From: a virus
Virus record (IMG/VR): IMGVR_UViG_3300011116_001087
Span: 1-34,855 of that record
Direction: 5' to 3' (one strand)
Length of the DNA stretch: 34,855 nt
Shown here: positions 9,957 to 32,330 of the stretch, in pieces
Layout: every line of letters starts with the position of its first letter
Position numbering within the stretch: position 1 is the first letter of the stretch
Position numbers and translations under genes: made by a program
The notes under the pieces: generated by a model
Seen by the model: only the letters and a program-made list of their open reading frames with translations
Database searches by the model: none
What the model was told of the DNA's origin: nothing

Positions 9957-12101
9957 ATGGCAGTTATTAAGCGTTATGCACATATCAACCAAACATCAAA
10001 CGATTCGCAAAACAAGCTTGATGCAGCAGAAGCATACATCACAGGTTCGTTTACAGCAGCATCGAGCTCACACCTTGTTGGTGCAGCAACCCTCGACAGC
10101 ACACTTGCAGTAACAGGTCAAGCTGACTTCTCAAACAAGATTGTTGTTACCCAAGACATTTCTGGTAGCGCAAACCTGTATCTTGGCCAAGATGCACAAA
10201 TCGTTGGCAAAGTATACGTCGGTGGCGAAGCAGATATGCACGATGTGCTTCCAAATGCTGACCTAACTTATGACCTAGGTTCAGTAGCAAAACGTTGGGA
10301 CAACCTTTTCGTTGGCTCAATGCAAGCACTCACAGTATCGGCAGAAGTACTTTCAGCTTCAGTTGATGCTGATCTCAATGGCACACTCCATGTTGAAGGC
10401 GCTTCAACCTTCGTTGGTGCAGTAGCAGTAGCACAACTCACAGGTTCAGCAGGTGCAAAATTCACCGCTGGCGATCTCAAAGTTGAAGCTGGTCAAGTAT
10501 CAGCATCAAGCGATCTCAAAACCGGTGCAAACCTCGTTGTCGCACTAGATGCAGACATCAATGGCGCACTCGACGTAGCTCTCGCTTCAGACCTTCATGG
10601 TGCAGTAACAGCCCATAGCACATTAAACGTCCAAGGCGCAGCCGACCTCGACAGCACCCTCAACGTTGATGGTATTGCAGATTTCCAAGACGACGTAGTT
10701 GCTCATGCAGATCTCCTCGTCAGCGGCAATCTTGAAGTAAAACTTACAGCAGATGTCGCTGGTAACTTCTCAGTTGCAACCAACAAGTTTACAGTAGCAG
10801 CAACAAGCGGCGATACAGCAATTGCTGGCGATCTCATGATTTCTGGCGACCTCACCGTAATGGGTGATCGTATCGAAGCACAAGTTACACAACTTGTGGT
10901 TGAAGACGGCCTTATCACTCTTATGAGTGGCTCAACAAGCCGTTTGCTTTCAACCGGCGCTGGTATTGAAGTTGAAGTTGGTGGTGGTACCAAACCAGCT
11001 ATTACCTTTGAAAATACCGAAGACGCATGGCAAGCAAACCTCGACTGGATTCCATCCATCGACGTGACATACGACCTCGGTCAACCAGCAAAACGCTGGA
11101 ACGACCTTAACCTTGGTGGTGCAGCAAACATCGACGGCGCAGTAAACGCAGGTTCACTCGCAGTAGACGGTGCAGCAACCTTCGGCGCAAGCATCGCTGT
11201 AACTGGCTCAGGCTCATTCTCAGGTGCAGTAACAGCACAAACCCTCTCAGCTTCAGCAGCTATCTCAGGTGGAAGCCTCGAAATCGCTGGTGCAGCCGAC
11301 CTCAATGGTGGCCTCGACGTAGTTGGTGCAATCTCAGCATCAGCAGGCGTAACCGCTGCTTCGTTCGATGCAGACGGCGAAGCACACATCGGTAGCCTCC
11401 TAGTTGATGGCGCAGCAGCTATCTCTGGTGGCCTCGGCGTTGTAGGCGCAATCTCAGCATCAGCAGAAATCGAAGGTGCATCGCTAGCCGTAGACGGTCT
11501 AGTGGATGCAGGTTCGCTTCAAGTAAGCGGCTCTTCAGCACTTCATGCAGTAACAGCAACAACCATTTCAGCTTCAAGCACCCTTGAAGTTGGTGGCGCT
11601 GCTACATTTGCAGATGCAACCTTTAACGGCACAGCAACTTTCAATGGAACATTTGCTGTTCCCGGTACCGGTTCATTCGGTGCTCTCGTTGTTAAGGGTG
11701 TAGACCTCTCACCAATCTCAGCATCCTGCACAACAAACGCAGACGTACAACAACTCTTCAGCTTTAGCCTTGCTTCTGGCCAACTTCTCAAGCTGGAAGT
11801 TGAAGTGCTTGCTGGTGGCGCAGATATGGGTGACGTAGCAGTAGCTGGCTTCAAATACAGCATTATCTGCGGTCGTGACCCAATGCTCGGCAATGCAACA
11901 ACAGCAATCGAACTTGCCAAAGAAGTTCTTGGCGACTCAGGCGCAAAACTCGACATCGCCATCGACGACTCAACAGCAGGAACACTTCTTCTCAAAGCTG
12001 ATGGTCAACAAGTTGGTCATGACGTACATTGGTCAGCTCAAGTAGTCAAGAAGATGAAGATGGACATGATGACAGGCGCAGTCATCGAAGACCGCATCTG
12101 A
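9957..12101 (+). CDS. Long repetitive virion (fibre/shaft) protein
   Basis: A 714-residue protein with a strong ribosome site (GGAAGAGG) and a clear start. Most of the length is short repeating beta units of 12-14 residues (such as LDSTLNVDG, AAISGGLGVVGAISAS, SLAVDGAATFG) rich in Ala, Ser, Gly and Asp. Two copies of a YDLG..AKRW.(D/N)L motif occur at ~105-119 and ~372-386, a module often seen in phage fibre proteins. The last ~110 residues (VDLSPISASC...WSAQVVKKMKMDM) are a non-repetitive tip. Codons are strongly biased to gca, ctc, gac and atc compared with nearby genes, fitting high expression. A strong terminator follows. Confidence 0.85.
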   Translation: MAVIKRYAHINQTSNDSQNKLDAAEAYITGSFTAASSSHLVGAATLDSTLAVTGQADFSNKIVVTQDISGSANLYLGQDAQIVGKVYVGGEADMHDVLPNADLTYDLGSVAKRWDNLFVGSMQALTVSAEVLSASVDADLNGTLHVEGASTFVGAVAVAQLTGSAGAKFTAGDLKVEAGQVSASSDLKTGANLVVALDADINGALDVALASDLHGAVTAHSTLNVQGAADLDSTLNVDGIADFQDDVVAHADLLVSGNLEVKLTADVAGNFSVATNKFTVAATSGDTAIAGDLMISGDLTVMGDRIEAQVTQLVVEDGLITLMSGSTSRLLSTGAGIEVEVGGGTKPAITFENTEDAWQANLDWIPSIDVTYDLGQPAKRWNDLNLGGAANIDGAVNAGSLAVDGAATFGASIAVTGSGSFSGAVTAQTLSASAAISGGSLEIAGAADLNGGLDVVGAISASAGVTAASFDADGEAHIGSLLVDGAAAISGGLGVVGAISASAEIEGASLAVDGLVDAGSLQVSGSSALHAVTATTISASSTLEVGGAATFADATFNGTATFNGTFAVPGTGSFGALVVKGVDLSPISASCTTNADVQQLFSFSLASGQLLKLEVEVLAGGADMGDVAVAGFKYSIICGRDPMLGNATTAIELAKEVLGDSGAKLDIAIDDSTAGTLLLKADGQQVGHDVHWSAQVVKKMKMDMMTGAVIEDRI

Positions 12102-12396: not shown

Positions 12397-12774
12397 TTAT
12401 TCCTCCTCAGTAATTGTCGTGCCTTTTAAGCAGATGGGGTGCTGTATGTGGCGTGATTGCTGGCCTAGTTGTTCTGAAGGTTGTTGTTTTATTTCTGCTA
12501 GCGAAGATCTAAGACCTAATAGCCCATATCCCATAAGATCTGAGTACGCATCAACTTTCTTTTCTTCTGTGTTTTCGTAAGATGTGGCAATCCGCATAAG
12601 CTTATCAAACACACGAACAATGCAAAGCATGTCTTTATATTGTTCTGGTTTAATGCCATCTGGATATAGCACTCTTAGGAAATCTCCAGCTTTATCAAAT
12701 GCAGAGCCATAAGCTTTTTCTTTCTCTGTAACCAAATCTGCGATTCCTTTTGCTAATTCTTGAAAACTTCTCAT
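12397..12774 (-). CDS. DUF1599/Nmad1-like protein
   Basis: A 125-residue protein from ATG 12774, chosen because GGAGGAG lies ten bases upstream and the ATGA overlaps the HNH gene stop; ATG 12795 would place that ribosome site inside the gene. The motifs EKEKAYGSAF (residues ~18-27), VRVFDKLMRIAT and YSDLMGYGLLG resemble the all-alpha DUF1599 / nucleotide-modification-associated domain 1 family found near phage nucleotide genes. The C-terminus is Gln-rich. Its N-terminus is paralogous to the 36-residue fragment at 13346-13456 on the far side of the HNH gene. A link to nucleotide metabolism is inference supported by the DHFR neighbour. Confidence 0.7.
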   Translation of the reverse strand: MRSFQELAKGIADLVTEKEKAYGSAFDKAGDFLRVLYPDGIKPEQYKDMLCIVRVFDKLMRIATSYENTEEKKVDAYSDLMGYGLLGLRSSLAEIKQQPSEQLGQQSRHIQHPICLKGTTITEEE

Positions 12775-13349
12775 AGATTTTGCTCCTCCATCCATTTTAC
12801 CAATTGTTTATGCTCTTCTAAAGTTCCATTGCTTTTTAAGGTATTTGCTCTTTTGGACATTACGATAATGTTTTCGGGTATGTATCCTAACGATGGTATG
12901 ATTTTGTCAAGGGTCGGAGAAGCATCATGTACTTTTCCATCACCCTGTATAAGTTTTAAACCTAATACTGGACAATACTCTGGAACTTTTATATCTTCTA
13001 TCGTTATCGTGAACGGCAACTTTTTTTCTTTAGCTCTTCTTTTTGCATGTTTCCAAAGATACTTTGCAGGATTTTGCAAAGAATCTTCTTTTACTTTTTT
13101 GCTTCGATTCTTTTTTACTTCAGGTTTCTCTCTGTACTCTTTAACTTTTTGCAAAACAACTTCTTTGTTTTGCTCGTAATAAGTTTTTGCATATTCTTGC
13201 CTCTTGCGTCTTTGTTCATCGTCATTATAACGATTTTTATGGTATTCTTTTTGACAAGCTTTACAAGTATTAGAGTATCCAGATTTCATGGTGTGGTTTT
13301 TTGAAAACTGGTCATTTGATTTTTCTATTTTGCATTTAACACAGATCAT
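12771..13349 (-). CDS. HNH-family endonuclease
   Basis: A 192-residue protein. An N-terminal zinc finger (CVKC at residues 3-6, CKAC at ~29-32, then a basic KEYHKNRY helix) is followed by a lysine-rich linker. The C-terminal nuclease-like part has CPVLGLKL, SPTLDKIIPSLGY, PENIIVMSKRAN and LK, the pattern of phage free-standing HNH homing enzymes. It starts in an ATGA overlap with a truncated gene fragment and ends in an ATGA overlap with the DUF1599-like gene. It therefore relies on translational coupling, since no ribosome site is seen before it. This is a likely mobile element. Confidence 0.85.
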   Translation of the reverse strand: MICVKCKIEKSNDQFSKNHTMKSGYSNTCKACQKEYHKNRYNDDEQRRKRQEYAKTYYEQNKEVVLQKVKEYREKPEVKKNRSKKVKEDSLQNPAKYLWKHAKRRAKEKKLPFTITIEDIKVPEYCPVLGLKLIQGDGKVHDASPTLDKIIPSLGYIPENIIVMSKRANTLKSNGTLEEHKQLVKWMEEQNL

Positions 13350-14037: not shown

Positions 14038-14667
14038 TCAACCAAATGTTAGTTCGGCATCAAATGCAACTTTGACTTTTGGAATTCTGATGTGATTTAC
14101 CATGTTATGTTTTTTGCATTCATCTGCATCCAAGAACCAATCAGCGTGACCATGTTCATGAACAAGTTTTGAAAAGTAAGCTTCTGGCTTACCACAATTA
14201 TCTGCCATAACTTTGAAAATCAATTTGTTAAGACGATCAACTTCTTTAGCTTCGGCTTTGATTTCTTCAACTTTGCCCATTGCAAAAGAAGCAACATCGT
14301 GGATCATAACGGTTCCTGTTGGAGCCATATAACGATGACCTTCTGCGCCACAGGTAAGAAGAACAGCGCCGCAAGACATTGCTTTGCCCATGCAAATGGT
14401 TGCAACGGGTACAGTTGAAGAACGAATTACATCAACCATTTTAAGAAGAGAATATACTTCGCCGCCATATGAATCAACGACGATTGGAATGATTGATTGC
14501 CCCGTGCTTTGAGCATTAATCATTGCTTCTAGGAACTCCTTTGCTGCTTCTTCGTTAAACTTGTTAACGTAAATGATGTTGGGCGAACGATATTTTAGAG
14601 CGATCTCTCCAGCATCGTTTATTTCTGGTTTTGAAAACTGTGAGTTTTTAATTTGTATTTCAAACAT
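14038..14667 (-). CDS. clpP: ClpP-type serine protease
   Basis: A 209-residue ClpP-fold peptidase. The catalytic triad can be placed at S98 (GKAMSCGA), H123 (VMIHDVA) and D176 (HADWF). The VDSYGGEV motif (65-71) and a head-domain helix follow the family layout. No ClpX or ClpA partner is in the window. It may use host ATPases or act as a maturation or host-targeting protease. AAGGAG eleven bases before the ATG is a strong ribosome site. It leads the minus-strand run with DHFR and faces the divergent gene at 14752. Confidence 0.92.
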   Translation of the reverse strand: MFEIQIKNSQFSKPEINDAGEIALKYRSPNIIYVNKFNEEAAKEFLEAMINAQSTGQSIIPIVVDSYGGEVYSLLKMVDVIRSSTVPVATICMGKAMSCGAVLLTCGAEGHRYMAPTGTVMIHDVASFAMGKVEEIKAEAKEVDRLNKLIFKVMADNCGKPEAYFSKLVHEHGHADWFLDADECKKHNMVNHIRIPKVKVAFDAELTFG

Positions 14668-14751: not shown

Positions 14752-15216
14752 ATGCGAATTGTTAACACAATATCTCTCTATAGCATTCTTTTTGAGCAGC
14801 TTAGCAATGATGAAGTTGCAACAACTTCATCATCTGGTTCTAGCAGCAAAGAAGCTGAGTTAGTTGGAAGTGCAGTAAAAACTGCAATTCAACACGTTCA
14901 AAATGGTATGAAAGATGTATTAAAAACACAAAATAATATGAGACGTGATGTGCAAGCTGTAAAGGTTGCAGTTGGTGCGGGTAGCTCAGGAAAATCAGCA
15001 TCTGCTAATACGCCTACAATAACACCAAATACATCAGCACCGGGGCCAGGAAATAAATCACCAACAACTCCAAGCTCAAAAACTCCAACTGGTGCAAGTG
15101 CTGCCGTTGGTGCAAAACCATCTGGTACTACTCCAGAACCTATTGCAAACAAACCAGAAAAAACAGATGGCAAAAGCATTATAGACAAAATGAAAGATGT
15201 TTTAGGTCTTCCTTGA
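14752..15216 (+). CDS. Low-complexity protein with leader-like N-terminus
   Basis: A 154-residue protein. Its N-terminus (MRIVNTISLYSILFEQL) contains the same LYxxLFE pattern as the genes at 17165, 17945, 18618 and 19193. A helical segment (~32-75, AVKTAIQHVQNGMKDVLKTQ) is followed by a Pro/Thr/Ser/Gly/Ala-rich disordered tail (~78-135) and a short amphipathic C-terminus (IIDKMKDVLGLP). There is no clear ribosome site. It ends exactly where the convergent thyA ends. The function is unknown; an internal virion protein is one option. Confidence 0.75.
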   Translation: MRIVNTISLYSILFEQLSNDEVATTSSSGSSSKEAELVGSAVKTAIQHVQNGMKDVLKTQNNMRRDVQAVKVAVGAGSSGKSASANTPTITPNTSAPGPGNKSPTTPSSKTPTGASAAVGAKPSGTTPEPIANKPEKTDGKSIIDKMKDVLGLP

Positions 15217-16089
15217 TTAAACCGCTACTTTTCCCTTGATAGCTGGATGATGTTGATAGTTTTCTAGTTTGATATCTTCAAATGTAAAACTATCAATATC
15301 CTTTACCTCTGGATTTAGAACAAGTTTAGGCATCGGATATGGAGTGCGGCTCAACTGTTCTTTGAGCTGTTCTCGGTGATTCGAATAAACGTGAAGGTCA
15401 CCAAAAGTATGAACAAAATCACCTACTTGCAAATCACACACTTGTGCAATCATATGTGTAAGTAATGCATATGAAGCGATATTGAAGGGCATTCCTAAAA
15501 AGGAATCGCAACTTCTTTGATATAGCTGACAAGACAGCTTTCCATTTACCACATAGAACTGGAACATGGTATGACATGGAGCAAGAGCCATTTTTGGAAT
15601 ATCTCCAACGTTCCATGCAGATACAATAAGTCGTCGTGAATCTGGATTGGTTTTGATTTGCTGAATAACTTCTTTGATTTGATCAATCGATTTATTTTTG
15701 TAAGTGGGAATAAATCCAATCCCGTCTTTCATGTGAAGATCTGGACTTAGATCGGTAACTAGATTGGTCCAACTTCTCCATTGTTTACCATAAACAGGAC
15801 CAAGGTTTCCATCTTTATCTGCCCATTCATCCCAGATAGAAATACCGTTTTCTTTTAGCCACTTGATATTAGTGTTCCCTTGGAGGAACCATAGGAGTTC
15901 TCCAACAACAGATTTCCAGTGAACTCGTTTAGAAGTTAGGATAGGGAATCCTAGAGAAAGATCATAACGAACTTGTCTACCGAATACAGAGATTGTTCCT
16001 GTTCCGGTACGATCAGTCTTTTCTACACCATTTGTCAGAACGTCATTGATTAGATCGAAATATGTTTGGTCAACGTGATGATATGTCAT
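15217..16089 (-). CDS. thyA: Thymidylate synthase (ThyA type)
   Basis: A 290-residue enzyme that methylates dUMP to dTMP using methylene-tetrahydrofolate. The nucleophile is C172 in [12 protein letters not shown]. Other family blocks are [69 protein letters not shown] and HVYSNH. Length is normal. AAAGGATATTC precedes the ATG. It works with the phage DHFR, dUTPase, RNR and Tdk to feed dTTP. It is the last gene of a minus-strand run that starts at 16775. Confidence 0.97.
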
Positions 16090-16142
16090 GAATATCCTTT
16101 CTTGTGAATCTTGTGAAGGATATCATACAACTGAAAATATAA

Positions 16143-16427
16143 TCAACCCTTTTCGCCTTTTGTCCAAGAGATACCCATAGCTGGTGGATCTTTCAACGTA
16201 TCATGTTCTTTGCTACGATAATATCCACCTTTGTTGAGGTTTTTATTGATACGCTTGTTTAGTTTCTTATGATAGCTTGGGCTGTTATCGTCTTTAGCAT
16301 GGATAAAGGTATCTGAGCCAATACGTCTATTGCGTCCAGTATATTTGTATCCCATTTTCTTTAGGAGTTTAGTATTGAAGGCAGCTTCTTGAATGAGAAG
16401 AGCGATGAGTTCTTTTAGGTTATCCAT
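16143..16427 (-). CDS. Small basic hypothetical protein, 94 aa
   Basis: The N-terminus MDNLKELIALLIQEAAF is an amphipathic helix similar to the LK.II.E leaders at 20698, 31929 and 32327. The rest is rich in Lys, Arg, Asn and Tyr (KKLNKRINKNLNKGGYYRSKEHD), which suggests nucleic-acid contact or packaging with DNA. It lies 12 bases after the gene at 16440 and 53 bases before thyA. No family was recognised. Confidence 0.65.
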   Translation of the reverse strand: MDNLKELIALLIQEAAFNTKLLKKMGYKYTGRNRRIGSDTFIHAKDDNSPSYHKKLNKRINKNLNKGGYYRSKEHDTLKDPPAMGISWTKGEKG

Positions 16428-16439
16428 AAAGGATAACTA

Positions 16440-16775
16440 TTATGGTAAGATAGCTGTTCTTACTTTGATTATTTCATGGCGATAAATTGGATATTCCCAT
16501 TGTTTACCCCATTCAGGGATTCCAACAACTTCTAAATAAAACAACATGTTTGTATCGTCAACATAATGAGCTTTGATAAGTCCACGAACAACACGTTCAT
16601 TAACTGATTTTGAATCAATTCTGTTTGCAAGCTGTCCGATTGATCCTGGGTTTAATTCCAACACAACATATGTGCCAACGGGAAGCTTATCTAACTGTGA
16701 TACGTTTATCGTTTGTTCTTCTTTTATCGTTGACTTCTTTTGAAACAGTTTTTTGAATGAATCTATGATACGCAT
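16440..16775 (-). CDS. Hypothetical protein, 111 aa
   Basis: Begins MRIIDSFKKLFQKKST, a basic amphipathic helix, followed by a beta-rich region (GTYVVLELNPGSIG, MLFYLEVVG). AGGTATT lies just ahead of the ATG, and the 33-base gap to the divergent gene at 16809 must hold control signals for both. TATACT on the minus strand in that gap could be a -10 element. No function was recognised. Confidence 0.7.
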   Translation of the reverse strand: MRIIDSFKKLFQKKSTIKEEQTINVSQLDKLPVGTYVVLELNPGSIGQLANRIDSKSVNERVVRGLIKAHYVDDTNMLFYLEVVGIPEWGKQWEYPIYRHEIIKVRTAILP

Positions 16776-16808
16776 AATACCTAGTATAAAATCTACATAC
16801 CTATATGC

Positions 16809-17168
16809 ATGTACTTCCTCTCTACTATTGGTGATGTTCCATTAGCCTTGAAAGTCCTAGATAAATCACATCTTCGATCCAAGGGATTTATGGGATGGAA
16901 ACAAGCTCCTAATGATCATTATGGAATGTTATTTCATCACGACATAGAACATCCACAATCTTATTGGATGCATACCGTTCCTTTTGATCTTGATTGTCTT
17001 GGATTTGATAAGGACAACCGCCTTGTTGAGATCATGCCTTTATATGCCTTCTCCGAAGCCTCCAGAGGCTTTTCTGTGCCCGTGAAACATGTTGTTGAGG
17101 TAAGGGGTGGTTGGTGCAAACACCACGGCATAAAAGGCTTAGAAAGACTAATTATAAGGAAGCTATGA
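16809..17168 (+). CDS. DUF192-family protein
   Basis: A 119-residue protein matching DUF192: FMGWKQ...GMLFHHD, SYWMHTVPFDLDCLGFDKDNRLVEI and VKHVVEVRGGWCKHHGI correspond to the family's GLM / MLF / FWM-T-LD / Iv / VLE-G-G pattern. The biochemical role of DUF192 is unsettled; phage copies are common. It ends with ATGA overlapping the next start, so the two are co-translated. Confidence 0.85.
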   Translation: MYFLSTIGDVPLALKVLDKSHLRSKGFMGWKQAPNDHYGMLFHHDIEHPQSYWMHTVPFDLDCLGFDKDNRLVEIMPLYAFSEASRGFSVPVKHVVEVRGGWCKHHGIKGLERLIIRKL

Positions 17169-17935
17169 AACTATACCCAATCATATTCACAAACGAAGTT
17201 GCAAGGTCTGTAGCAGGGTCGCTTGAAAAAAATATAGCGGCAAAACTGATATACGACGATCTAGTTGTATTGTTTTCAACAAAAAGAATGGATAAAATTC
17301 TTTCGAACGCTTCAAAATCATCTTTGTATAAGTATAATTTTGAAGCATGGCGGCAACAGGTGATAAAAAGCTTATCAGACTCTGCGATTGTAGCAACTGT
17401 TTCTTTTGATAAAATATCTTCAAACTTATATACTGTTTCAACTTCTGCTGGCGTTTCTGGTTTTGGTCCTTTGGCCTACCAACTAGTAATGCAAAAAATA
17501 AAACCAACAAATGATTGGTTGAAAAGCGATGTTTCTGTTTCAACAACAGCTCATAATGTTTGGAACAAGATGTACCAACTCGCAGATTTATACGAGCGTA
17601 AATGGCTTGGTGATTTCAATCCTATATATATAAAAAATGCTTTGCGTACCCATGCTATAAGGGGCTACGATCCTTCTGTGCATGGAAAAACCGAAGCTGA
17701 AGTTGCTGCTTTTATAAATAAAAATTCACCAAATCCACAAGATGAAGATGTGTTTAAAAACTATGGCAACTTGTACGCATATCGTCTTAAGAATGATATC
17801 CCAGAGTACAAGACACTTTACGATAAAGGTGAAATATTTTTTGGTGGTTTAGACAGATATGATATATCTGAATCCGATATTAAACATATCTTTGAAAGAT
17901 CCACAACTAGTTTTTTTTCTCGTCGTTATAAATAG
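17165..17935 (+). CDS. MKLY-leader protein with GNAT-like core, copy 1
   Basis: A 256-residue protein. Start 17165 is chosen because AAGGAAG precedes it, it overlaps the DUF192 stop as ATGA, and MKLYPIIFTNE matches the paralogues. Around residue 98, GFGPLAYQLVMQKI, followed by a serine-valine stretch and HNVWNKMYQLADLYERKWLG (~130-150), aligns with the next gene (GWGPLLYQAAMKRI, KVWNKCYELKNLYNRKYIG). The G-x-GP-L-x-Y motif recalls the acetyl-CoA site of GNAT folds, but this is tentative. The C-terminus ends FFSRRYK. This may be a virion-packaged enzyme, by inference from the leader. Confidence 0.75.
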   Translation: MKLYPIIFTNEVARSVAGSLEKNIAAKLIYDDLVVLFSTKRMDKILSNASKSSLYKYNFEAWRQQVIKSLSDSAIVATVSFDKISSNLYTVSTSAGVSGFGPLAYQLVMQKIKPTNDWLKSDVSVSTTAHNVWNKMYQLADLYERKWLGDFNPIYIKNALRTHAIRGYDPSVHGKTEAEVAAFINKNSPNPQDEDVFKNYGNLYAYRLKNDIPEYKTLYDKGEIFFGGLDRYDISESDIKHIFERSTTSFFSRRYK

Positions 17936-17944
17936 GAGCAATCA

Positions 17945-18607
17945 ATGAAATTGTTTCCCCTGTTGTTTATAAATGAAGCTCAAGTGTTTGCAAGTCAAGC
18001 TTATCAGCAAGGCTATGCTTTGGTTGAAACAAACTTTGAATCGAAAATCACTTTGGTTTTTATAAACAAGAATCAAATGAAAGATGCATCTGGAAATTTG
18101 AAGCAAAGCGGTGACGGTATCGTTCAAGGTTATATATCGTTCATACCACCAGAAGAAGGTGACATCGCAGAAGTTCGTTCTTCAAGTGCTATAGAGGGTT
18201 GGGGTCCATTGCTTTATCAAGCTGCAATGAAAAGAATCGCACCAAACTGGTTGGCTAGTGATACCAACTTATCTATCGATGCAAATAAAGTGTGGAACAA
18301 ATGTTATGAGCTTAAAAACTTATATAATCGCAAATATATTGGCAATCTAAGCAGTGATAGATACGAATGTTGTGTTAGTGTTTTTAGTTCCATCCCAAGT
18401 GATGAAGATATGGAAACAGAGCAAGATTTTCTTAGATTCTTACAATCCCAGAACGTTTCACCAGAGAACACTGGTTGTTTCTGGGCTTATAAAAAGAAAA
18501 CGCATGAACCAGAAATTGACGTTTTATTTAGGGAAGGAAACATCCTACTTAAAACAGTAGGAAACGAACAAATTTTCGAATGGATTAACTCCTCAAATTT
18601 ACCATGA
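17945..18607 (+). CDS. MKLY-leader protein with GNAT-like core, copy 2
   Basis: A 220-residue paralogue of the preceding gene. MKLFPLLFINEAQVF is the leader. The shared core lies at ~84-125 (GWGPLLYQAAM, then KVWNKCYELKNLYNRKYIG), and the C-termini share a tyrosine-rich CFWAYKKK/NLYAYRLK stretch and a LFREGNILL/LYDKGEIFF match. TAGGAG lies ahead of the ATG, nine bases after the previous stop. The duplication is clear and diverged. The function is unknown; a GNAT-like fold is a suggestion only. Confidence 0.75.
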   Translation: MKLFPLLFINEAQVFASQAYQQGYALVETNFESKITLVFINKNQMKDASGNLKQSGDGIVQGYISFIPPEEGDIAEVRSSSAIEGWGPLLYQAAMKRIAPNWLASDTNLSIDANKVWNKCYELKNLYNRKYIGNLSSDRYECCVSVFSSIPSDEDMETEQDFLRFLQSQNVSPENTGCFWAYKKKTHEPEIDVLFREGNILLKTVGNEQIFEWINSSNLP

Positions 18608-18617
18608 AAAATAAATC

Positions 18618-18761
18618 ATGAAACTCTATCAGTTATTGTTTGAAGCTGCAAAATCTCCAGAAGACGCTATTGAATCCGATTTTAACATATCTTTGACAAA
18701 TCCACAAGTAGTTTTTTCTCTCGTCGTAACAAATAGGATCAATCAAGTTAAGCTGCTCTGA
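18618..18761 (+). pseudogene. Collapsed third copy of the MKLY-leader family
   Basis: A 47-codon frame. The start MKLYQLLFEAAKSPEDA is a full family leader. From about 18673 the DNA matches the last ~25 codons of the gene at 17165 plus its downstream spacer (17868-17947 against 18673-18750, including CCACAA.TAGTTTTTT and AAATAGGA.CAATCAA). A one-base loss puts it in another frame. It is therefore an N-terminus fused to a C-terminal end by internal deletion, with the following start codon also lost (CAATCAATG became CAATCAAGT). It could still encode a 47-residue peptide. Confidence 0.75.
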
Positions 18762-18770
18762 ATAATCTAA

Positions 18771-19148
18771 TCATTCAATATCTTTATCAATTTCTGGGGA
18801 AGCTGATTTAACTGGCTGTTCTGGACTATCTACATCTGGTTGATCTGCCCAGAGTCTTGCCATCCCACGATCTGTGGCTGCTTCGAACTCAAAAAGATTT
18901 TCCTGCATCTCTTTTAGAGCTAGGGCATCTGGGTTGTGAACTTTTGGAGAAGATGTTTTTACTTTCTTTCCAGCACGCTTTCTCCAGAAACCTTTTTCAA
19001 GCTTTGAACTAGATCCAATACCGGGAGCTCCAAGAGGTGCTGTATATCCAACAATTCCACCACCTCCAATAGCATTCTGTTCTTCTAGTTCTTCAAAAGC
19101 TGCTTCAGAAGTTTCTTCATTGAGATAATAAGACAAATTTGTTTTCAT
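18771..19148 (-). CDS. Hypothetical protein with Gly-rich motif, 125 aa
   Basis: Starts MKTNLSYYLNEETSE after AAGGTGAA. Residues ~25-45 hold QNAIGGGGIVGYTAPLGAPG, a glycine-rich motif that looks conserved in style. A basic patch (WRKRAGKKVK) and an acidic tail follow. It is divergent from the gene at 19193, with a T4-like late box between them, and ends beyond the collapsed copy at 18618. No family was recognised; a small virion or assembly protein is possible. Confidence 0.65.
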   Translation of the reverse strand: MKTNLSYYLNEETSEAAFEELEEQNAIGGGGIVGYTAPLGAPGIGSSSKLEKGFWRKRAGKKVKTSSPKVHNPDALALKEMQENLFEFEAATDRGMARLWADQPDVDSPEQPVKSASPEIDKDIE

Positions 19149-19159
19149 TTCACCTTACT

Positions 19160-19167
19160 TATAAATA
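19160..19167 (+). promoter_or_regulatory. T4-type late promoter box TATAAATA
   Basis: An exact TATAAATA octamer, the -10 element of T4 late promoters, sits 25 bases ahead of ATG 19193 in the correct orientation, which would leave a leader of about 20 bases. No -35 element is needed in that system. No phage late sigma gene is seen in this window, so the assignment rests on the exact match and position. Confidence 0.45.
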
Positions 19168-19192
19168 TTTAGGTTGAGAGGTTATAAGCACA

Positions 19193-20602
19193 ATGAAGTT
19201 ATACCATTTTTTATTTGAACAAGCTGCGACAGGAAATCCATACATTGGTGGATTTGAGATTAAAACAGCCGAAGAGTTTGCAAGAGAAGAATCATCACCA
19301 GATGAATTTACATCTACCAAAGCAGCACAATCATTAGCAGAAAAATACTCAGTTGGAAACTTGGTTGATTTTCTTTTTGAAGTATCAAAAGTAAACGTTC
19401 GCAAAGCCGTAGCTCCCCTTCCCGGTAGCCCAGACATGAAAGGTAGAAGAATCCCAACAGGTGATTTGAAAACCTTTATTGGCAACGTTGCAAAAGGAGA
19501 AACAACAGAGTTAGAAGATAAAACAACTCCTGCAATGCATTCAATCACAGCACAAAACTTGCTTATTCCTGTAACAACACTTGCAAGAAAGAAAGCAGAA
19601 CGTGATCAGGTTTTCAAAAAAGGAATCGAAGAAAAAGGTCTTAAAGTAGCCTCAGAAGAAGCTGTAAACAACCTAATCAAAAAGCTTACAGATTATAGCG
19701 ACCTAGAAATTCTTTCACAAAACGGTAAAATGAAAAAGAGTGGTTCTGAAGTTGGTATGTACTACAATTTCTCCCTACCAGCTCTTAGAGGTCTTGTTTA
19801 TGATGAGAAAGCATCAACCCCAGAAGAACCAGTCTTTTTGGAAGTAACAACATGCCCCGGCGCAGGTAAATGCATGTTGGGTTGCTTTGCCCGTGGTGGA
19901 AGCTTCGTTCAATACAACGCAGTTTCAGAAAGACAAACAAAAATTCTTAACTTCCTCTATAATCGCCCAATGGAACTCAAGCAAAAACTAATTGATGACA
20001 TTGGAATGTTGACAAACAAAAACAAAAAGAAAGGCATCAAGACTTCAATACGTTGGCATGACTCTGGAGATTTTATGTCCGAAGGTGTTACCAATCTTTA
20101 TTATGATGTAATGCGTCATTTTGAAAGTGAACCAATGGTTGACTTCTATGCTTATACCAAGAGCATTGAAATGATGAAAGCTCATGAAGAACAAGGTAAA
20201 GTCCCAAGCAACTTTACCCACAACTACTCATATGGTGCAACAGGTAAAGGCGAAAAAGCAATCGATCCAACCAAGGACAAGTTTTCTGAAATCGTACCAG
20301 AAAACGTTGTGCTTAGGTTTCTTGAACGTGTACCAGTAATTGATGAAAAAACTGGAGTAGCTAAAGTAGCTAAAGGTAAACCAGTTACCAAGTTTGCCAT
20401 AAAAGACGGCAAAGACGATGAAGTTAAAAATGCAGTCAAAGGATCAGACGTTTATAAAGAAAACGGACTACCACTTATTACAATACCAGAATACTTAGAA
20501 GGTGATTTTTCTAAACCAGCTAACGTTATTATTCTCCCCGGTGAACCAGATACCCCTGCAAACGACAAAAACATCATCGGCATTTATCTTATCGAACACT
20601 GA
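19193..20602 (+). CDS. GP88-like protein with MKLY leader
   Basis: A 469-residue protein. It begins MKLYHFLFEQAATG, the shared leader. The central region (~215-325) has TTCPGAGKCMLGCFARGG, SIRWHDSGDFMSE and VDFYAYTKS, which match the phage gene-product-88 family (Cys-rich start, RxHDSGDF, FYAYTK). The function of that family is unknown. The conserved cysteines could bind a metal or cluster. The N-terminal ~200 residues are charged and probably helical; the C-terminal part ends IIGIYLIEH. A late-type promoter lies upstream and a strong terminator downstream, so it can be a single-gene transcript. Confidence 0.8.
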   Translation: MKLYHFLFEQAATGNPYIGGFEIKTAEEFAREESSPDEFTSTKAAQSLAEKYSVGNLVDFLFEVSKVNVRKAVAPLPGSPDMKGRRIPTGDLKTFIGNVAKGETTELEDKTTPAMHSITAQNLLIPVTTLARKKAERDQVFKKGIEEKGLKVASEEAVNNLIKKLTDYSDLEILSQNGKMKKSGSEVGMYYNFSLPALRGLVYDEKASTPEEPVFLEVTTCPGAGKCMLGCFARGGSFVQYNAVSERQTKILNFLYNRPMELKQKLIDDIGMLTNKNKKKGIKTSIRWHDSGDFMSEGVTNLYYDVMRHFESEPMVDFYAYTKSIEMMKAHEEQGKVPSNFTHNYSYGATGKGEKAIDPTKDKFSEIVPENVVLRFLERVPVIDEKTGVAKVAKGKPVTKFAIKDGKDDEVKNAVKGSDVYKENGLPLITIPEYLEGDFSKPANVIILPGEPDTPANDKNIIGIYLIEH

Positions 20603-20697: not shown

Positions 20698-21135
20698 ATG
20701 AAACAACAACTGAAGCTTATCATTAAACAAGTTATTGCAGAAGAACTTCAACAAGAAGGAAAAGGTTATTTAAGAGGCGCTGCTCTCGCAGGTCTTATGG
20801 CTCTTGGAGGAAGCAAACTTATGAGTAGTGCTTCTTCTGATAAAGGCGAAGTAACACAACAAAAAGCAGATTCCGTTCGTGATCTTGCAGACTTTGTTGA
20901 CAACACTCTTGGCCCTTCTCTTGATAGAGACTTTGCCGAAGAGTTTGAAAGACCTCAAAGACTTGTTACGCAAAAAGTTGCAGACATTAAAAATTTTAGT
21001 GGAGATGAAGAAGGTTTGTTTGAAGAGTTGAGACTCTTAGCTGTTAGACTCCGCAATGCTGGAGTTAGATCAAGCGATGTAGACGAATATATGTCAAGAT
21101 ATTTTCAACTAAAAGCATCAAGAACAAGACAATAA
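20698..21135 (+). CDS. Hypothetical protein with LK.IIK leader, 145 aa
   Basis: The N-terminus MKQQLKLIIKQVIAEELQQ is an amphipathic helix of the LK.II.E type also found at 31929 and 32327. A short hydrophobic Ala/Leu/Gly segment follows (~24-40, GYLRGAALAGLMALGG), then a charged helical body (DLADFVDNTLGPSL, EGLFEELRLLAVRLRNAG). It ends one base before the convergent nrdA stop. No family was recognised; a packaged or core protein is possible. Confidence 0.7.
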   Translation: MKQQLKLIIKQVIAEELQQEGKGYLRGAALAGLMALGGSKLMSSASSDKGEVTQQKADSVRDLADFVDNTLGPSLDRDFAEEFERPQRLVTQKVADIKNFSGDEEGLFEELRLLAVRLRNAGVRSSDVDEYMSRYFQLKASRTRQ

Positions 21136-31928: not shown

Positions 31929-32330
31929 ATGGCCTTAACAAAACAAAAACTAAAAAAAATCATAAAAGAATGTGCTTGTGAAGCAATGAAAGACATGGAA
32001 GGACCAGAAATGGGAATGTCTTCGCCAGCTTCTATAAAAGTTGTCAAACTTGGTCCAATGATGGATAATATGGGATCAGAAGATGTTCACGGTTTGTTTC
32101 CCGGCATGAGCCATCGAGATCATGAACAACATGGTGGTCGTGGTCAGGAACTGGGTATGGTTCGTGGAAATCTTCTTAGAATGGCAGACAAAGCTATGGA
32201 AATCCGTGATCTAGCTGATGCTATTGATGAAGATGATGAATGGGTTCGTGAAAAGGTTGCTATTGCAGCAGCTATGGTTGATTCAATTCACGGCTTTCTG
32301 AAATACAACAAGGATGATAAACAATCATGA
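31929..32330 (+). CDS. Small charged protein with LK.IIKE leader, 133 aa
   Basis: MALTKQKLKKIIKECACEAM is the leader-type amphipathic helix. A Met/Gly-rich region (GPEMGMSSPA, GPMMDNMGS) and a His-rich patch (HRDHEQHGG) follow, then a helical, acidic C-terminus (ADAIDEDDEWVREKVAIAAAM). It begins one base after the previous stop and overlaps the next start by ATGA. The function is unknown. Confidence 0.7.
   Translation: MALTKQKLKKIIKECACEAMKDMEGPEMGMSSPASIKVVKLGPMMDNMGSEDVHGLFPGMSHRDHEQHGGRGQELGMVRGNLLRMADKAMEIRDLADAIDEDDEWVREKVAIAAAMVDSIHGFLKYNKDDKQS

Follow-up and report, generated by a model that had tools for sequence, protein, structure and literature searches.

Several genes in the window, the whole 34,855-base IMG/VR virus record IMGVR_UViG_3300011116_001087, open with nearly the same short peptide, MKLYxxLFE or a longer form, MKLYP[IL][IL][FY][LIT]NE, hereafter the class-A leader. 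The original prediction had listed five near-identical peptides, at 14752, 17165, 17945, 18618 and 19193, and all were found at these starts; that all five frames begin with the leader was not borne out for 14752, where the motif occupies residues 8-15 of MRIVNTISLYSILFEQ. This first carrier (14752..15216, + strand, by sequence reading) is a 154-aa low-complexity protein with its leader in residues 1-15 (14752-14796, ...SLYSILFE|Q). It is followed by a 256-aa GNAT-like protein (17165..17935, +; leader MKLYPIIFTNE, 17165-17197), identified by open reading frame (ORF), alignment and predicted fold, by its 220-aa paralog (17945..18607, +; MKLFPLLFINE, 17945-17977), by what is left, 47 aa, of a third GNAT-like paralog (18618..18761, +; MKLYQLLFE, 18618-18644) and by a 469-aa GP88-domain protein (19193..20602, +; MKLYHFLFE, 19193-19219). 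In four of these ORFs the final Glu is residue 9 or 11, and in 14752 it is residue 15, which makes the element an N-terminal leader of about 10-20 residues. Read directly, with no predictor, the leaders lack the unbroken hydrophobic core, some 10 residues long, of a Sec signal peptide, with the Glu coming at 9-11.

The three middle carriers belong to one family. Proteins 17165 and 17945 are alignable end to end at 28% identity and are paralogs, the intact counterpart of 18618 is a 269-aa ORF of another record (L006:3390-4199, MKLYQLLFEAAKSPEDAIES), and in relatives tandem paralogs of this GNAT-like family occur several per record. The stretch 18618-18761 looks like a decayed gene, a leader joined to a tail like the end of 17165. 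The claim that what follows the leader is unrelated therefore had to be given up within 17165, 17945 and 18618, and stands between 14752, the GNAT-like family and the GP88 protein. Among leaders of the paralog family, the Glu is invariant though the two residues before it come and go (MLFE|A versus IYLNE|A). A predicted fold was available for 17165 as sole carrier: its body is mostly confident (mean predicted local distance difference test, pLDDT, 81.8), residues 1-13 and 252-256 fall below 50, and the leader is predicted to be unstructured and outside the folded domain. Most of the 50 PDB chains listed as fold matches are acetyl- or acyltransferases by title, with a best Z of 5.7; 17165 had no match at E 0.001 in the viral fold library and no Pfam hit above cut-off, and the 17945 protein had no match among the phage records searched. 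The GNAT-like core that had been proposed is plausible from these modest fold matches, not proven. The ATG at 17165 sits within a longer TTG-started frame (17111), yet it is the likelier start because it overlaps as ATGA the stop of a DUF192 gene (16809..17168, +; PF02643, 9.7e-15).

The GP88-like domain claimed for 19193 was recovered by Pfam (PF17338, E 4.1e-28, residues 188-370; 99.2 bits against a cut-off of 24.4). Upstream of it, on the opposite strand, lies a 125-aa protein (18771..19148, -) with a variant leader, MKTNLSYYLNE (19148-19116), its N-terminus reading MKTNLSYYLNEE. Positional counterparts of this gene, similar by eye, begin MRNKLKDFLFEEEE (L008:13231-13836, -; no BLAST match at 1e-4), MSKLKSIIYEDAA (G007:9110) and ...SLSSLLFKEAM (G005:149211). 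Those of 14752 begin MKTVKLFQILFEADD (L008:6169-6540) and MMKTISLYSILFEADD (G007:309-668), likewise with no BLAST match at 1e-4. Judged from sequence, three carriers of the class-A leader in the window are independent of one another (14752, the GNAT-like array and GP88), and 18771(-) adds the variant.

Further leader proteins with unrelated bodies, whose collection the original prediction had proposed as a check, were found in number. A DNA pattern for MKLYxxLFE hit 77 places spread over 71 viral contig stretches; at 49 of these places the translation gives MKLYxxLFE opening an ORF of at least 58 aa, and these ORFs form 20 body clusters, the largest of 22. In tiles of viral records, the window included, a leader regular expression recovered 57 leader ORFs in 30 body clusters from 13 of 14 records. 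These 57 are 58 hits minus G007:155862, judged spurious by eye; clusters were built by single linkage at BLAST E 1e-3, with 14752 and its positional counterparts counted as two. The GNAT-like paralog cluster takes 13 of the 58 hits and a second cluster 8. The expression does not catch leaders in which three residues precede the Glu, such as G002:31804 (MKLYQILYSLDE). G007 alone, a single 260-kb record, keeps 17 leader ORFs. With a different expression, the motif in the first 20 residues of ORFs of at least 50 aa exceeded expectation from its internal rate in the window (4 versus 0.16), G007 (19 versus 1.5), G011 (9 versus 0.26) and G006 (7 versus 0.52); G005 (1 versus 1.75) and G010 (2 versus 0.73) stand apart from these. 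The counts include a few hits that are not leaders by eye. All records except the window, G001 and G002 had been picked for holding a leader match.

N-termini were also compared without any motif, by counting protein pairs that lack a body BLAST match and reach an N-terminal score of at least 33, with internal, C-terminal and shuffled controls. G007 gave 91 N-terminal pairs versus 10, 39 and 14 in these controls, G011 21 versus 3, 1 and 2, and G006 19 versus 5, 8 and 8. Pairs between two class-A leaders made up 31 of the 91 in G007, 17 of 21 in G011 and 7 of 19 in G006. The remainder in G007 comprised 21 pairs within a second class (class B, M[RK][IL]TxxQLK[RQ][LI]IKEA), 7 A-B pairs by pattern that are mostly class B by eye, and 32 others, at least 14 of which involve a small-protein family and are probably homologous. 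In the window, G007, G011 and G006, leader sharing goes beyond chance and extends over many dissimilar cargoes.

A Pfam scan covered 30 leader ORFs of relatives, five of them over the curated cut-off, and the five window carriers, with GP88 alone over it. The relatives' cargoes were ART-PolyVal (4e-19), NUDIX (1.7e-18 and 2.1e-17), a legume lectin (3.5e-15) and DUF7178 (1.4e-31). The packaged Alt protein of T4 is an ADP-ribosyltransferase, according to excerpts of PMC9026906, and because of the ART-PolyVal cargo we counted leader cargo as of the kind that T4 packages. PHROGs put no 'internal head protein' label on ten leader carriers. Identical leader residues were encoded by different codons in 1724 of 3365 comparisons, against 1960.5 expected from codon usage (88%); because synonymous codons are used near random expectation, it is the peptide and not the DNA that is conserved.

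The GP88 homologs offered a view of one cargo in several genomes. They begin MKLYHFLFEQ in the window, MRDKSYRRFLFKEA in G002, MTMKKKLRYLILNEGA in G005, MKIIKLKSLLEN in L003 and MKRLLLKSLIAET in L004, the last two records having been found via GP88 and not via leaders. The matches of the window's GP88 among phage records are four, which are two viruses each present twice, Streptomyces phage Gilgamesh and the archaeal virus vir335; in these unrelated viruses GP88 carries no leader at its start. Of the 535 N-termini of other proteins in the window's own set (the window itself with G007, G006 and G011, chosen partly for leaders, which biases this value), 5.8% resemble the window's (score of at least 24), as against 0 of 22 in L003/L004, 1.8% of the 55 from G012 and 0.4% of the 263 from G005. 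Conversely, N-termini resembling that of L003 reached 22.7% of the 22 in its own set versus 1.1% of the 535 in the window's, and those resembling that of L004 13.6% versus 2.8%. For the G002 and G005 leaders, own-set resemblance was near background. A 110-aa family beginning MKLYNLLFESKQ... has a homolog, by eye, in the cultured Flavobacterium phage immuto (NC_055915) that begins MRLLELLREAKEA. The same motif-free test gave immuto 27 N-terminal pairs versus 8, 5 and 2 in controls, partly Sec-like signals (MKKLFLLLPLL), and this phage has leaders of its own, MENFDLKKFLVEN on four proteins and the MKKSQLRQIIKEAL type on three. The leader goes with the genome, as far as these N-termini tell: from one lineage to another, GP88 homologs carry different ones. 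In immuto, a leader reading M(E)NFDLKKFLVENxLT was noticed at 1803, 103806, 117631 and 118632, two of these genes being just upstream of the terminase gene.

The closest view of the surrounding genome came from G007 (260,466 bases), in which 32 window ORFs of at least 70 aa have a BLAST match, collinear and at 29-98% identity, over a span running from about G007:244,697 to the record end and then from G007:1 to about 24,499. G007 encodes a Peptidase_S77 prohead protease (E 2.7e-29), gp23 (E 2.2e-64) and, between both, a gp22-like ORF; the gp22-like ORFs of G007 and G012 were named from position and resemblance. The S77 protease and gp23 are both present in the same 5 of 20 records searched, G007 among these. 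Because this syntenic relative has both genes, the phage of the window is very probably T4-type and about the size of G007, some 260 kb. In G012, a leader protein of 185 aa is encoded between gp21 on one side and the gp22-like and gp23 genes on the other, and in G007 a class-B member (G007:190466) lies between gp21 and the gp22-like gene.

The end of the leader resembles a prohead protease site. As excerpts of PMC9026906 describe, T4 gp21 cleaves after L/I-x-E, T4 internal proteins (IPs) bear N-terminal propeptides of 10-19 residues, the gp23 propeptide has 65 residues, and in IPIII targeting rests mainly on residues 4 and 7 and processing on 8 and 10, Asp substituted for the Glu being inhibitory to processing but compatible with targeting. 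L/I-x-E was found within the first 18 residues of 52 of 57 leaders versus 322 of 1380 other ORFs, a difference partly imposed by the search pattern, and in four of the five window carriers. Thirteen leaders have residues between F/Y and Glu (six FE[KQ]E rows excluded); 8 of these show L or I at P3 and the other 5 show T. Residue 4 of the 39 gapless leaders is Y in 33, F in 5 and N in 1, and residue 7 is L in 30, I in 8 and M in 1, again partly imposed by the pattern. The Glu of T4 gp23 residue 65 is invariant in all six gp23 proteins aligned; the site reads MLNE in G007 and G005 and MLAE in G009, and LNE also closes many leaders. Enrichment of [LI]xE inside the gp22 of G007 was not convincing (19 versus 15.8 expected).

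The class-A leader is thus probably the capsid-targeting propeptide of this lineage, cut by gp21 and carried by swappable packaged cargo. It would dock unrelated proteins onto the prohead core, the gp22 scaffold, during head assembly; the T4-type protease gp21 would cut past the Glu (..LFE|, ..LNE|, ..INE|), as in gp23 maturation; and the cut proteins would remain in the head, probably to be injected along with the DNA. A targeting role of the T4 kind, as originally put forward, gives the best fit to the dissimilar cargoes, the protease and capsid genes of the relative, the cleavage motif, the leader outside the fold and the GP88 leaders; on the other side, three of the five window carriers share the leader by ancestry, one of these being a remnant, and 17165 breaks L/I-x-E. 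If the leader does mark proteins for packaging, some of the head proteins of uncultured phages, and probably the effectors that they inject, could be read from their genes alone, and many hypothetical proteins would acquire a role in the infection event that can be tested.

A number of observations weigh against this packaging role. S77 and gp23 are absent from the window and 14 other of the 20 searched records, all 15 being fragments. Five of 57 leaders, 17165 among them, have no L/I-x-E in residues 1-18 and end in TNE, and at the gp23 site P3 is V, not L/I, in G012 (IVAE) and immuto (IVSE). In G005, which carries S77 and is syntenic in part, a single class-A leader stands against 1.75 expected, and BLAST finds no counterpart of the window's GP88 in G007. 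G005:149528-150619 joins DUF192 and a GNAT-like body in one leaderless ORF, in place of the two genes overlapping by ATGA in the window, and L008:8175-8975 (-), GNAT-like by eye, is without a class-A leader. N-terminal pairs scoring at least 33 showed no excess in the S77-bearing isolates Mel-JY01 (16 versus 9, 23 and 16 in controls) and RM378 (6 versus 11, 5 and 5) and a slight one in T4 (17 versus 11, 13 and 10), so that large leader families are a trait of some lineages. A T4 late promoter was tried as a strong mark of leader genes and set aside, its enrichment being weak or mild: exact TATAAATA, which we take to be a T4 late-promoter-like motif, lies upstream of 3 of 57 leader genes versus 8 of 971 others, and TATTTA within 60 bases upstream of 14 of 57 versus 97 of 971. 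By sequence reading, the window has TATAAATA at 17927..17934 (+), 10 bases before the ATG of 17945, and at 19160..19167 (+), in the divergent gap of 18771(-) and 19193(+).

The leader might instead direct assembly into some other part of the virion (tail, baseplate or neck) or serve as a chaperone handle, which we consider unlikely. The GP88 homologs of L003 and L004 lie among structural-looking ORFs, in L004 one ORF from a terminase-like ORF (by eye), S77 was not seen in either fragment, and the window has a structural-protein match (9957-12101, phrog_697); the head core nevertheless agrees better with a cargo resembling injected enzymes, with the L/I-x-E ending, with an N-terminus that is unstructured and with the leader protein between gp21 and gp22/gp23. 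Common ancestry only, that is, tandem duplicates of one gene family with diverged bodies, would account for 17165, 17945 and the remnant 18618, and for the two large hit clusters; as a general explanation it is very improbable in view of the 30 body clusters, the distinct Pfam families (NUDIX, ART, lectin, GP88) and the leaderless GP88 of Gilgamesh and vir335. As little credit can be given to processing by the ClpP/S14-type protease homolog (14038..14667, -; CLP_protease PF00574, 3.2e-30; phrog_94 head maturation protease, 5.2e-25) and not by gp21: it adjoins a leader gene and is also found in G002 and G007 (the G007 copy cut by the record end), but in G007 an S77 gene is present as well, close to the genes for gp22-like protein and gp23, and gp23 there retains the gp21-type site. 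That N-terminal conservation serves translation or regulation, as start-region RNA and not as peptide, is most improbable given the near-random synonymous codon use, in spite of the commoner TATTTA upstream of leader genes.

Within the capsid-targeting interpretation, a more tentative and rather doubtful extension is that each T4-relative lineage has its own label on changing injected proteins, mimicking the N-terminal helix of its own gp22, so that cargo would co-assemble with the core and be freed by the same gp21 cut. The G007 leaders resemble the N-terminus of their own gp22 (MSTPLYQEALIEAKK) with an area under the curve (AUC) of 0.78, versus 0.66 for own gp23, 0.56 for T4 gp22 and 0.52 for immuto gp22; leaders within one genome are not independent, so p-values for these and the following AUCs are not trustworthy. 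G011 and G006 leaders reached 0.68 each with the gp22 of G007, and the immuto leader MENFDLKKFLVEN 0.89 with its own gp22 versus 0.75 with that of G007. The T4 IPs do not prefer their own gp22 (0.87 own, 0.90 with that of G007, 0.96 with that of immuto). If such lineage-specific labels were real, they would offer an orthogonal tag set for protein loading into phage heads.

The nearest known system is the capsid-targeting sequence of T4 IPI, IPII and IPIII, along with the propeptide of Alt, likewise a short N-terminal peptide with an aromatic residue 4, a hydrophobic residue 7 and a gp21-type site at its end; T4 ipII and ipIII begin MKTYQEFIAEA. Run on 299 T4 ORFs, a leader profile placed ipII/ipIII joint 5th, alt.-1 11th, ipI 55th and, translated with one additional Met, alt 203rd, and the top ORF (63557-63919), which is not known to have a head role, scored far above ipII/ipIII. 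The sequences differ in that the consensus here is MKLYxxLFE, with Glu at 9 or 11 and not 10, more carriers per genome and other cargo. The T4 sequence has been recognised on a handful of proteins, whereas one leader here sits on 17 genes of one 260-kb record; as a capsid-targeting sequence, which it most likely is, the leader stands out by how many and how varied its carriers are. In P1, the N-terminal 30 residues of DarB suffice for reporter entry into the capsid, but by the authors' account the Dar proteins have no N-terminal consensus by BLAST and no separate scaffold (PMC9024508, in excerpt; compared by description only). Heads of the SPN3US/phiKZ type also have propeptides cut by a T4-related prohead protease, with N-termini in common between gp53 and gp54; SPN3US differs in the motif, A-x-E, and in that six of its eight N-terminal propeptides have 111-254 residues (excerpts of PMC5694885 and PMC10052503). 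The Far-T4 phages are, similarly, uncultured T4 relatives known from gp23 (PMC4360716), a likeness by description and not clade placement; 'prohead', 'internal' and 'leader' are absent from that text. The literature searched, partly as excerpts, contained no description of this leader, no literal leader peptides and no virion proteomics for immuto. Two reviews among those listed name this phage, and PMC7077304 has 'proteom' solely in the title of a reference and 'mass spectrometry' nowhere.

Other features of the window deserve mention. A 145-aa protein (20698..21135, +) has a class-B-like leader, MKQQLKLIIKQVIAE (20698-20742), by resemblance to class B of G007. This second leader class was seen in the window at 20698-21135 (MKQQLKLIIKQVIAEEL) and 31929-32330 (MALTKQKLKKIIKECACEA) and is common to other G007 proteins. 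The 18771(-) family (G005:149211-149558, L008:13231-13836) has, by eye, a short stretch in common with gp23, AMALSTGGASLGASSQVVG in G005; its gp23 counterpart in G007, NLSLSTGGASLASSGQVAG, lies just past the putative gp23 cleavage site. A near-identity search of INPHARED with a 10-kb part of the window returned no match. A small ORF (12771-13349, -) has cysteines in pairs and looks HNH-like by eye; it is without a match in G001, G002, G005, G006, G007 and G013 and is possibly a recent insertion. The thymidylate synthase frame has 290 aa in the window (15217-16089) versus 529 aa in L008 (6554-8143), where it contains an in-frame insertion that is mobile-element-like in look.

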